A stretch of DNA of 64,000 nt, taken from assembly GCA_946414315.1 (NCBI GenBank), contig CAMKNZ010000011.1:1-64000 (forward strand). The letters run 5' to 3'. Both the position numbers and the translations under genes were made by a program. The stretch's first letter is position 1, and every line of letters starts with the position of its first letter. The notes under the pieces are model-generated. The model ran no database searches and was not told the DNA's origin. It saw nothing but the letters and a program-made list of their open reading frames with translations. The stretch comes from an uncultured Clostridia bacterium (GTDB taxonomy: Bacteria > Bacillota > Clostridia > Christensenellales > Aristaeellaceae). Positions 27,061 to 30,777 of this stretch are shown piece by piece.

Positions 27061-27265
27061 TCAACCTGCTTTTGCAACCTTCCCGCAGCAGGAAAAGAAG
27101 CCCGGATCAACGGTGCGCAAGGGCTCTTCCGCATTTACAAGCCGGACGGCTCCATCTTCCGGATGCAGCTTCTTGTCTGTTGTCTGAGAAATGAGAACGG
27201 CCAGGATATCTTCCAAGGCCTCGCCATAGGCATAACCGGGGTCATGAACCTGAGAGAGCTGTCAA
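27061..27265 (-). pseudogene. Possible frameshifted C-terminal extension of the deaminase gene
   Basis: Just before the deaminase stop, the minus strand continues in another frame for 60-odd codons without a stop: QVHDPGYAYGEALEDILAVL, then ISQTTDKKLHPEDGAVRLVN, then AEEPLRTVDPGFFSCCGKVAKAG and TGA at 27061-27063. It has no start codon of its own. Adding one CT to the CTCTCT run near 27253-27259 would join it to the deaminase, giving about 878 residues. It fills the whole gap to the next gene. Whether this is a mutation, programmed shift, sequence error or chance cannot be decided here. Confidence 0.45.
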
Positions 27266-29692
27266 GGCGCTGATGACTGCGTACGGGGTTCCGATCGGTT
27301 CCACATAACCTTCAAGCATTTTGGCTTTGATCCGAAGTCCTCTGGACCGCGGATTGATAAACATCCTGCACTTGCCCCGGCCATTCTTCGCCTCCTGCAT
27401 CAGGTTCTGGGCCGGCGCGTTGCCGTCAAAGGCGATCAATGCCGAATCCATCCGCTTGAAGACCTCATAGGAAAAGCTCTTATACAGTCCCATTCCGGAA
27501 CTTTCGATGGAGATCCTGACCGAAACGCCCGCCGCGAGCAGGCGTTTTTTCTCTGCCCGGCTGATCCGGTTGGGCACGATTGCGACGATCTCAAACCGTC
27601 CCCTGTTCCGATCCGCCAGGTAACCCTCCTGCCCGGACAGGCTGTGGCCGATCACAAAATATGTTTTCGCCGGGTTCAGCGTGTCCAGCAGCCGGTCGAT
27701 CAGCAGTTTCTCTTCATCCCGCACGTTGGAGCGGTGGCTTGAGTTGTTGAAGCTTCCGCCTGCGATCACCACCGGGAACTTCCCTTCCGGCAGCGGGGCG
27801 ATCAGCTCCTTCAGTTCCTCCGCCGCGTCGATCCGTCCGGATTCCTTCCACAGGTCCTGTACGATCCTGGGCGTTTCCTCCAGCCGGCGCAGGTACCATT
27901 TCTCCGCGTCCCCGGCGCCGTACTCCTCATGAAACACCGTCATCCGCTTTTCAAACACGCGCAGGCTCTCCTGCAGGATCCGTTCCTCCGTCCTGCGCAT
28001 CTTTTTCAGCTCGTCGCAGCTCAGTCCCAGCAGTTTCTCCAGCGACAGCTCCTCGTCAATAGAATCCGTTCCGTACAGCGCGCTGCCGTCCGTTCCCTGC
28101 ACGCAGGCGACGCCTGCCCGCAGATACTGCCGCAGCGGATGGTTGTCCAGCCGGGACAGGTTGTTCAGCCGCACGTTGGAGGTGATCTGGAATTCCAGTG
28201 TCACCTTGTTTTTCTTCATGTCCGCCAGCAGTTTCTGGCCCTTGGGTTTTCGCAGGTCACAGGTGTACAGGCCGTGTCCGATCCGCAGGTTCGGCATCTT
28301 CTGCCCGGGCGCCAGCGCTTCCGTCACACAGGCGATGCTGTTTGCCACATTGTCCCGCAGGGAGTCGTTCTCGCCAGCATGAATGCGGATCACAAAGCCT
28401 TCGTTTTCCCCGGCAATCTTTACCAGTTCCCGGATTACCGCGCGCAGTTCCAGGATGTTGTTGATCTCCTCGCCGATGATATCGCTGCCGGCCACATAGG
28501 GATCCCCGGCAATTGCCCGGAGGATCTGCAAGTTGTCCGCCAGGTAGTCGTTGGGCGTAATCCGGTCTCTGATGATCGTCAGCGGAATCCGGCGTATGCC
28601 GGCCAGGAACCGGAGCGTCACGCCGGTTTCCCGGGTGACCGCCGGCATGATCTCGTGGATTTCCCGCAGTTTACGGGCAAACACGGCGCGGTTCAGCAGG
28701 CTCGTGTCCGATATCTCCGCATATTCAATTCCCCTGCGGCGGTATTCCCGGGCGATCCATAAAAGCAGGTCCTGGTACAGTGTATTGCTGCCGAAGCGTT
28801 CTGTTTCCCGGTCCCGGCGCATCTGTTCAGCGTAGGCAAGCACCTCCCGGTCCGGGATCAGGGCCAGGTTGATCCCGCTGTACTGATCCTCAGCCGGCCT
28901 TCCCTTGGTGAATACGTATCGATACAGGTAAACTTTTTCCAGATCGTTGAACACGGCCTGGCCGTCTTTGGGGATCGTCAGGGAATTCCGGATCCGGTCG
29001 ATGTTGTACTGCGCGTCCGCGGGATTCCCGAGGATCAGCTCCGCAAAATTGATGAATGTCAGGTCGTCGATCCGACGCTCCCGGTGCTTTCCGGTCAGCG
29101 TAGTTTCCCCCAGTGCCGCTTCCGCCGCGATCCGGCGTTCCTCGAGCTTCGCCGTCTGGGAAAGGTCGCAGCGCAGTTCCAGCTTTTTGATGTAGTAATA
29201 CGGGTACCTCAGCTGTCGCACGATGCCCAGGGCGATCAGGGCGTCCGGCGGAAGGTTCCCGTTCATATGCGTATGCAGGTCCGTCCGGAACTTGCAGTCG
29301 CCCAGGATATAGGTCTTGACGATCGTCTTGGCTACGCCGAGTTTATAATCCCGGGTCTGGCTCATCAGCGTCTTGGAGATCGCGGGAATCGACGCCTTCA
29401 TCTCCACCCGGCCGTTCGGAAAGATATTGGCGATCTTTGTATTCCCGAGCCGCAGGATATACATCTTCCGGTTGTCCCCGTCGTAATAGCTGGGGATCTC
29501 GTCACGGATCACCTTCAGTCCCTGATCGTCAAGCTCTGTCTTCAGGTCACACAGTTTCGCCAGGTTCGTGATCAGGTTGCCGGAATGGTGGTTCGGCGTC
29601 CGGATGGTATAGAACAGGCGGTCTCCCTCCATCCGGAGGTCGACCGCGATATCCTTTTCTTTGTCAAGATAAAATTGTTGGAAGAAGATCAT
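27242..29692 (-). CDS. Large adenosine-deaminase-like protein with C-terminal SLOG-like domain
   Basis: The 816-residue protein has three parts. An N-terminal domain (about 1-130) is unrecognised. A metal-dependent deaminase barrel (about 135-560) shows DLHTHMNGNL (HxH metal site), RIHAGEND (catalytic Glu), LRIGHGLY and a metal Asp in GTDGSALYGT. Typical adenosine deaminases have TDD at the last site; here it is TDG, which may alter substrate choice. The C-terminal Rossmann-like region (about 640-810) has PVVIAGGSF, TYFVIGHSLSG and YEVFKRMDSALIAFDGN, resembling the SLOG nucleotide-sensor superfamily. Typical deaminases have about 340 residues. The gene overlaps the GGDEF gene by ATGA. The size recalls RdrB of RADAR, but no RdrA is nearby. 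Purine deamination is likely; the role is unknown. Confidence 0.8.
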   Translation of the reverse strand: MIFFQQFYLDKEKDIAVDLRMEGDRLFYTIRTPNHHSGNLITNLAKLCDLKTELDDQGLKVIRDEIPSYYDGDNRKMYILRLGNTKIANIFPNGRVEMKASIPAISKTLMSQTRDYKLGVAKTIVKTYILGDCKFRTDLHTHMNGNLPPDALIALGIVRQLRYPYYYIKKLELRCDLSQTAKLEERRIAAEAALGETTLTGKHRERRIDDLTFINFAELILGNPADAQYNIDRIRNSLTIPKDGQAVFNDLEKVYLYRYVFTKGRPAEDQYSGINLALIPDREVLAYAEQMRRDRETERFGSNTLYQDLLLWIAREYRRRGIEYAEISDTSLLNRAVFARKLREIHEIMPAVTRETGVTLRFLAGIRRIPLTIIRDRITPNDYLADNLQILRAIAGDPYVAGSDIIGEEINNILELRAVIRELVKIAGENEGFVIRIHAGENDSLRDNVANSIACVTEALAPGQKMPNLRIGHGLYTCDLRKPKGQKLLADMKKNKVTLEFQITSNVRLNNLSRLDNHPLRQYLRAGVACVQGTDGSALYGTDSIDEELSLEKLLGLSCDELKKMRRTEERILQESLRVFEKRMTVFHEEYGAGDAEKWYLRRLEETPRIVQDLWKESGRIDAAEELKELIAPLPEGKFPVVIAGGSFNNSSHRSNVRDEEKLLIDRLLDTLNPAKTYFVIGHSLSGQEGYLADRNRGRFEIVAIVPNRISRAEKKRLLAAGVSVRISIESSGMGLYKSFSYEVFKRMDSALIAFDGNAPAQNLMQEAKNGRGKCRMFINPRSRGLRIKAKMLEGYVEPIGTPYAVISALTALSGS

Positions 29693-30777
29693 TGCCTGTT
29701 CCTCCGTCGGTCATGCATGTATTCCTGATAGAACCGTGCTTTGTCCTTGTACATTTTCTCATCCGCCCAGCGGATCAGATCCTGCACTGTGGCCGAACTG
29801 AGTCCCCGCATGGAATAACCGGTGGAGATAAAATATCCCCGGGCCTGGATCCGCTGTTTCAGATCCTTGATCACCTGCGCCACAACCTCTTCGTCCTGGT
29901 GGATAAACAGGAGAGCAAACTCGTCCCCGCCGATGCGGTACGGGTAGATCTTTTTGTTCCGGATCTCCTGAAGGTTCATACCGATGATCTTCAGCGCCTC
30001 GTCTCCCGCTTCATGTCCCGCCGAATCGTTCAGATACTTCAGGCCGTTCATGTCAATGGAGGCTACGGCGCTGATGGACGCGCCGAACCGGATGCAATCG
30101 TCATAGAAGGAGATACGGTTCAGCAGTCTCGTCAAAGGATCCCGGTTCGTATCAATGGAACGCTGGAATACATACAGGAACAAACTGCTGATAATAATCG
30201 CGGCGTTCAGGTGCGCGCTTTCCATCTCCATATCAATCAGCGCCGCGCAAACGCAGGCGATCGCGCAGACATACAGGATAAAGCGCTCCCGGGTATGGTC
30301 CTTTCTCCGGAAACCCCACCAGGTCATGATCACCGCCAGGGCAATATAGGAGAAGGAGACCCACATCACCGAGTAGCTCAGGGGCCCTCTTCCGAAATGA
30401 TAGGTATCGCCGAAGTAAAACGCCACGTCGGAAAAAAAGGCGGTACAGTAGATGCACGCGTTGATGAGGTTCGGGATCCAGAGCCAGAACGGGCGTTTGG
30501 TTCTCGGATAAACAATCAGGCAGATGCTCAGCGCGGCAGTCGGCCTCATGATGTAACCAATGACTGAAAACAGTATACGCAGGAATCGCCGGGACGGATC
30601 CTCTGCCGCCCACAGTTCCCCGCTGTCCACCACAATCAGGATCAGCGTGCTGAGGATCGTAAGCCAGTGATAGCGCAGCGAATGGTCCATGGAACCGCGC
30701 TGGTGCCATAGTTTCATTGAAAAACCGACAATCAGGAAGAGTGTAAGAAAATGCCGGTAAACCAATTCAACTGCCAT
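29689..30777 (-). CDS. Membrane-bound diguanylate cyclase (GGDEF)
   Basis: The 362-residue protein has six or seven N-terminal membrane helices (to about residue 200), resembling small-ligand sensors. A GGDEF domain follows with RDPLTRLLNRISF, SIDMNGLKYLNDSAGHEAGDEAL (read in parts) and the intact active site YRIGGDEFALLF. No RxxD inhibitory site is visible five residues before GGDEF. It should make cyclic di-GMP at the membrane. Its stop codon overlaps the deaminase start (ATGA), so a nucleotide second-messenger enzyme is translationally coupled to a purine deaminase. A promoter lies about 63 bases upstream. Confidence 0.92.
   Translation of the reverse strand: MAVELVYRHFLTLFLIVGFSMKLWHQRGSMDHSLRYHWLTILSTLILIVVDSGELWAAEDPSRRFLRILFSVIGYIMRPTAALSICLIVYPRTKRPFWLWIPNLINACIYCTAFFSDVAFYFGDTYHFGRGPLSYSVMWVSFSYIALAVIMTWWGFRRKDHTRERFILYVCAIACVCAALIDMEMESAHLNAAIIISSLFLYVFQRSIDTNRDPLTRLLNRISFYDDCIRFGASISAVASIDMNGLKYLNDSAGHEAGDEALKIIGMNLQEIRNKKIYPYRIGGDEFALLFIHQDEEVVAQVIKDLKQRIQARGYFISTGYSMRGLSSATVQDLIRWADEKMYKDKARFYQEYMHDRRRNRQ

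Follow-up and report, generated by a model that had tools for sequence, protein, structure and literature searches.

A SLOG-tailed relative of adenosine deaminase in gut Clostridia, tentatively read as a regulated deaminase of 5'-phosphorylated purines

The 64,000-nucleotide stretch of DNA analysed here (the window; contig CAMKNZ010000011.1 of assembly GCA_946414315.1, from an uncultured Clostridia bacterium) encodes an 816-residue protein, P0001, made up, from its N-terminus on, of a domain of mostly beta strands, an adenosine-deaminase barrel and a C-terminal domain modelled with a SLOG-type fold, a kind of domain often employed in sensing small nucleotide signals. The catalytic residues of the deaminase are kept, the two aspartates with which mouse adenosine deaminase (ADA) holds adenosine are lost, and within the genus the gene has near-core status. 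Tentatively, we favour a physiological role for P0001, as a deaminase that acts on a 5'-phosphorylated purine under the control of its SLOG domain. The barrel would be an active, metal-dependent purine 6-deaminase whose pocket has shifted away from adenosine, most likely towards a 5'-phosphorylated adenine compound such as AMP, ATP or N6-modified AMP. The SLOG domain would bind, rather than cut, a small nucleotide-type ligand, and this binding would set the activity of the barrel. One could picture such a protein serving everyday nucleotide balance or stress signalling in gut Clostridia, which we regard as its most likely setting, rather than a dedicated anti-phage system. The features on which the argument draws are these:

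29689..30777, minus strand: upstream gene P0002, a 362-residue protein with a GGDEF (diguanylate cyclase) domain; four-base ATGA overlap with the deaminase start
27242..29692, minus strand: P0001, an 816-residue SLOG-tailed adenosine-deaminase-like protein (reading frame and translation, Pfam, relatives)
29297..29692, minus strand: N-terminal domain, residues 1-132, mostly beta strands (model, Pfam, dN/dS)
27983..29296, minus strand: adenosine-deaminase barrel with an insert, residues about 133-570 (Pfam, Foldseek, dN/dS)
29261..29275, minus strand: HTHMN, residues 140-144, with two metal histidines and N144 at the place of mouse ADA D19 (family alignment; alignment with human ADA, a weak match)
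28793..29197, minus strand: insert-bearing region, residues 166-300 (sequence, model)
28370..28381, minus strand: HAGE, residues 438-441, with a metal histidine and the catalytic glutamate (sequence, alignment)
28271..28279, minus strand: GHG, residues 472-474, with the catalytic histidine H473 (sequence, alignment)
28085..28093, minus strand: TDG, residues 534-536, with the metal D535 kept and G536 at the place of mouse ADA D296 (alignments)
27794..27982, minus strand: poorly conserved linker, residues 571-633 (pair identity)
27245..27793, minus strand: SLOG domain, residues 634-816 (model, Foldseek, dN/dS)
27404..27427, minus strand: DGNAPAQN, residues 756-763, at the place of the LOG motif PGGTGTLE (local, non-significant hhalign match; strand order)

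The reading frame at 27242..29692 and its translation bear out the preliminary description, which had recognised both the deaminase and the SLOG domain. It had missed that the gene lies on the minus strand, with its ATG at 29692 (the plus-strand reading of 27242-29692 contains four stops), and that its start shares four bases with a diguanylate-cyclase-type gene. The GGDEF motif of P0002 (29689-30777, minus strand) is intact. Downstream in the window lies an AI-2E family transporter (by Pfam), and the other flanking genes include those for QueH, MatE, a PLP enzyme, a flavoprotein and a set of ABC transporter components; when these flanks were compared with PADLOC, a match was obtained for the ABC ATPase only, to generic ATPase-type models.

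P0001 is a member of the adenosine deaminase superfamily (PF00962), as judged by a profile match above cut-off together with the HxH, HAGE and GHG motifs and the metal aspartate. A_deaminase, the sole Pfam family above its cut-off, spans residues 313-567 (E 5.4e-15; 55.7 bits against a cut-off of 27) and matches all 23 family members tested at E <= 1; other families gave mostly weak matches in these 23, the best being Amidohydro_1 (eight members, 0.00025, not placed within the protein). The NCBIfam equivalogs for adenosine deaminase were not reached, with 45.9 bits against 216.55 for TIGR01430 and 46.1 against 459 for NF006846. Residues 1-132 of P0001 have no Pfam match at E <= 1, and the N-terminal domain thus keeps the status of unrecognised that it had been given. 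By hhalign the first 172 residues, a stretch that takes in the start of the barrel, align with a divergent relative, L140 (E 9.7e-11).

An AlphaFold2 model of the whole protein, built from 23 genus sequences (mean pLDDT 79.7), displays the mostly-beta N-terminus, the barrel with a helical addition between HTH and HAGE, and an alternating alpha/beta C-terminal domain. The model makes residues 166-300 nearly all helical, apart from two short strands or bridges, and is poor at 240-252. H142 and H438 are 296 residues apart in P0001, about 100 more than in mouse ADA. Loops 442-444, 504-513 and 535-545, which adjoin the catalytic motifs, fall below pLDDT 50, so that the pocket cannot be read from the model. 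Among the best 50 of 1457 Foldseek matches to the whole model, the barrel resembles adenosine deaminases, adenine deaminase, ADAL/MAPDA and AMP deaminase, and one Moco carrier protein, of SLOG-type fold, appears in the same set. The linker between barrel and tail has a mean pair identity of 0.30, and no position in it reaches 98% conservation.

The active site was followed through an alignment of 103 family members, among them the window copy, L079, which is interrupted by a stop, and the divergent L140 (two of 105 rows, cut by contig ends, were dropped). H140, H142, H438, E441, H473, D535 and G536 are invariant in all 103, which confirms the HTH, HAGE and GHG motifs noted at the outset. The same holds for the TDG that stands where TDD is usual: TDD is nowhere restored, and since G536 is invariant the change is fixed and not a slip. 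What the preliminary description had overlooked is the replacement at the mouse ADA D19 site, two residues after the second metal histidine, where 102 members have N and one, L140, has A (HTHFAG). Human ADA aligned with P0001, a weak match overall, shows HVHLDG at the place of HTHMN, and a profile alignment sets TDG, at the D296 site, opposite the SDD of Plasmodium vivax ADA. With both adenosine-holding aspartates of mouse ADA replaced, the suggestion made at that stage of a substrate other than plain adenosine is supported.

Ordinary ADAs served as a control, with matches at 28 loci, 27 of which passed a motif filter. Site 19 holds D or E in all 27. At site 296 ten have D and eight have N, and in nine the pattern does not resolve the residue; three control proteins from the same genus as the window read HLHLDG and TDD. 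The eight with N (L179-L185 and L189) are stand-alone ADAs that have TDN for TDD and an intact D19, so a change at site 296 alone is not diagnostic, nor is it confined to Cad1-like proteins. ADAL, which acts on N6-methyl-AMP, presumably has Asn at site 19. TaqCad1 has Gly for Asp19 and Asn for Asp296, two positions that contact ATP and are essential for its deamination, according to PMC12669630. By analogy with Cad1, the changes at both sites support, without proving, a 5'-phosphorylated substrate for P0001.

Modelled alone from 87 relatives, the tail (residues 634-816) reaches a mean pLDDT of 94.8. Foldseek returned YvdD/LOG-type proteins, TRPM8, a Moco carrier protein and DprA at PDB ranks 1-9, with TRPM4 and ShosA also among the best 50 matches; query TM-scores are mostly about 0.54-0.66, only three matches pass E 0.001, all of them LOG-type, and the lower rows of the 50 include unrelated proteins. 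The LOG-type, TRPM, Moco carrier, DprA and ShosA proteins are members of the SLOG superfamily. As modelled, then, the tail is a Rossmann-type fold matching known SLOG structures, and the C-terminal Rossmann/SLOG domain that had been proposed from the letters is confirmed by its fold. Searches with sequence alone linked it neither to a real LOG nor to a solved structure, and the 87 members had no match to Pfam SLOG families among the families listed (25 of 28); the one exception by sequence is L140, whose tail it matches in hhalign (E 2.4e-7).

The LOG motif PGGxGTxxE is absent from the tail of the family, which has DGNxxxxN instead, with D756 in 100, N758 in 101 and N763 in 102 of the 103 members (D in the remaining one). 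A real LOG found in one of 41 genus genomes, L177, keeps PGGTGTLEE; the hhalign match of the tail to it is local, covers just the motif stretch and is not significant. Residues that are invariant or nearly so in the tail follow strands 1, 2, 3 and 5 of the model, and the strand ends of Rossmann-type folds are the places where ligands bind. Because the LOG motif is replaced and the fixed residues lie at strand ends, the SLOG tail would be more likely to bind than to cut. It is the fold and the missing motif that point to a sensor role, and the SLOG class does include non-catalytic sensors beside enzymes (PMC9503650).

Within the genus the gene is nearly universal in genomes of good quality (>=90% complete, <=5% contaminated), being present in ten of 11, with G012 as the exception. 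A first sample of 37 genus genomes gave a near-full-length match in 26 and one cut by a contig end; a second, of 41, gave an A_deaminase match in a frame longer than 800 residues in 31, four of which were not aligned further. G004 retains a 61-residue remnant only (L028:6019-6207, plus strand), an apparent loss, so the gene can be dispensed with at least there. A sample of the class gave matches in 12 of 391 genomes, a count that takes in the window's own genome and the divergent L140. A scan of GTDB contigs brought up at least 564 relatives among at least 595 stretches, 80 of which were kept, many of them, to judge by their titles, from ruminant gut. The family is therefore sizeable; it is widespread in bacteria but apparently unstudied, and we found no function assigned to it. 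Phage and plasmid records and viral contigs gave no match (the viral scans rest on short peptide patterns), and a fold search of BFVD gave nothing under E 0.001.

All three parts of the protein are under purifying selection, with dN/dS over six pairs of 0.017-0.106 for the N-terminus, 0.041-0.125 for the barrel and 0.069-0.165 for the SLOG domain, values that are rough because dS reaches 1.5 in some pairs. Copies within the genus resemble the window copy in step with rpoB identity (Spearman 0.85) over 17 genomes, those of 26 searched whose rpoB match is of full or almost full length (six unmatched and three partial, G019, G023 and G036, were omitted). Members from two other families are 47-52% identical to the window copy at an rpoB identity of 63-64%, while one group of the genus shows only 54-57% at 86-89%. 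In the gene tree, of uncertain root, the genus falls into more than one group and other families lie near one of these, a pattern whose bearing on transfer depends on the rooting. Distant families are thus closer to the window copy than rpoB suggests, and by these sequence comparisons transfer between families is possible. L140 (889-3237, plus strand) is a 783-residue protein whose parts come in the same order; it retains TDG and has A at site 19, its HTH-HAGE spacing is shorter (112 to 328) and its tail matches the family SLOG domain by profile. As a query against 398 phylum genomes it gave two matches at E <= 1e-15, both to the main family, and no further L140-like relatives.

The content of purine deaminases in carrier genomes is informative as well. 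In seven of the 11 good genus genomes (G001, G010, G017, G018, G022, G031 and G035) the two models used find this gene alone, with A_deaminase matching nothing else and no hit passing the adenine deaminase cut-off, which suggests that the protein takes part in normal purine traffic. A second A_deaminase match occurs in G002 and in G008, an adenine deaminase is present in G012, which lacks the gene, and G832 combines a canonical ADA and an adenine deaminase with the SLOG-tailed gene. The genus also has a second ADA-like family, with frames of 502 and 489 residues (L155 and L157), a signal-peptide-like start and an SDDG motif, which is possibly secreted. Genes of the TIR_2 family were found in nine of 17 carriers tested. 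The window's own genome has four clustered TIR_2 matches (G000:C12:3465-10352), three of them below the family cut-off.

The surroundings of the gene were compared over 105 distinct loci (13 duplicates dropped), and its neighbours vary widely; the downstream gene of the window is common to eight loci, the window included. On the same strand and no more than 150 bases away lie 85 adjacent genes, 55 of them upstream and 30 downstream; 80 were scanned, and five near-identical downstream ones omitted. No Pfam family occurs in more than three of the 80, and PADLOC models match no more than two each among the families listed (25 of 38), mostly generic helicase or ATPase models; the reading of these loci as defence islands was rejected on these grounds. 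Csa3, CasR and CARF each have a single PADLOC match among the 80. The GGDEF domain of P0002, used as a query, has a match within three genes of the deaminase, to one side or the other, in six of the 105 loci, a count that farther ones could escape.

It is conceivable, though rather unlikely, that P0001 is an abortive-infection effector, modelled on Cad1 with its CARF domain and RADAR with its RdrA, in which a nucleotide signal made upon infection would bind the SLOG domain and switch on the conversion of ATP (or dATP) to ITP. We give no better a chance to a one-gene, non-CRISPR counterpart of Cad1, sensor and effector together, in which a nucleotide second messenger bound in the SLOG domain would switch on deamination of ATP or of another nucleotide, as a near-core growth throttle of gut Clostridia. 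The change of the same two substrate sites in Cad1 (PMC12669630) is consistent with such a role, as are the TIR_2 genes of nine carriers and the use of SLOG by ThsA effectors as a receptor for cyclic ADP-ribose isomers, described in PMC11204291. Yet the other eight of the 17 carriers are without TIR_2, which weakens a TIR-made ligand as a universal signal as far as this one family goes; and the near-core presence in ten of 11 good genomes, the mostly ordinary neighbours and the lack of a match in the phage, plasmid and viral sets do not support the defence family that had been envisaged at the outset. A Cad1-like abortive-infection role is possible, with less support than the physiological one. 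The patchy spread beyond the genus speaks the other way, since the 12 matches in 391 class genomes would also fit horizontal transfer, as in defence genes.

A further, improbable alternative is a two-step enzyme, in which the barrel would strip the amino or N6-modified group off damaged AMP and the SLOG domain would then cut the base from the ribose phosphate in the manner of LOG. The action of ADAL on N6-methyl-AMP, which also appears in the names of PDB entries among the best 50 of 1457 barrel matches, argues for it, and so do the three LOG-type tail matches under E 0.001 and the frequent action of LOG-like SLOG domains on nucleotides with modified adenines (PMC9503650); against it stands the reading of PGGxGTxxE as DGNxxxxN, with its nearly invariant N763, when the LOG of the same genus keeps the motif. 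No more probable is an ordinary adenosine or adenine deaminase with decorations: this would suit the full set of metal and catalytic residues and the seven good genomes where it alone is found by the A_deaminase and adenine deaminase models, but D19 and D296 are both lost, and D296N severely impairs mouse ADA, as cited in PMC12669630. Least of all would we expect P0001 and the diguanylate-cyclase-type gene that overlaps it to work in one cyclic-di-GMP circuit. The ATGA overlap in the window has a parallel in L049, where a GGDEF gene stands at an equal spacing of -3, but these two are the only loci of 105 with a GGDEF gene as overlapping upstream neighbour, and GGDEF was rejected as a general partner for that reason.

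The barrel, metal and catalytic residues of P0001 are those of a canonical adenosine deaminase (PF00962), from which it differs in length (816 residues against about 340), in the replaced D19 and D296 and in its extra N- and C-terminal domains. The tail has the fold of the SLOG domains of LOG/YvdD, DprA, Moco carrier protein and TRPM; unlike the LOG enzymes, P0001 lacks the LOG catalytic motif and is fused to a deaminase. ThsA does not appear among the best 50 Foldseek matches of the tail. No SLOG-deaminase fusion is mentioned in the titles and opening parts of abstracts that were searched, or in the available parts of PMC7159879, PMC12948488 and PMC9503650, although an earlier mention is possible.

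RdrB of RADAR, a system with a dodecameric shell, likewise has a long extension at its N-terminus and an insertion within the ADA barrel, but it has no counterpart of the SLOG tail. PADLOC (2.0.0), whose models should include those of RADAR, RdrB among them, detected RdrB neither in P0001 (E <= 1) nor in 23 members (E <= 0.01), and RdrA in none of the ten flanking proteins or P0002; nor is an RdrB structure among the best 50 of 1457 Foldseek matches. The initial view that the protein is separate from RADAR is supported by these PADLOC results. Another parallel in design is with Cad1/CAAD, the CARF-fused adenosine deaminase of type III CRISPR systems, which converts ATP to ITP on binding cA4 or cA6. 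It likewise joins an ADA barrel to a Rossmann-type nucleotide-binding domain and has both mouse ADA sites changed (PMC12669630). However, Cad1 has G and N at sites 19 and 296 where the P0001 family has N and G, and its CARF domain is N-terminal, whereas P0001 has a C-terminal SLOG domain and, as far as the model with its mostly-beta N-terminus goes, no sign of an N-terminal CARF. The PADLOC model CARF_ADA does match P0001 (25.8 bits; residues 312-550 only, profile positions 338-555 of 605), but stand-alone ADA-type frames match it far better, with up to 211 bits, and the match was rejected as not specific. The sequence tests do not make P0001 an RdrB or a Cad1. Both of these, known deaminases tied to an ATPase or to a nucleotide sensor, are anti-phage; a near-core deaminase outside a defence setting would, if the reading is true, mean that the same design serves ordinary nucleotide control or else a one-gene defence effector.
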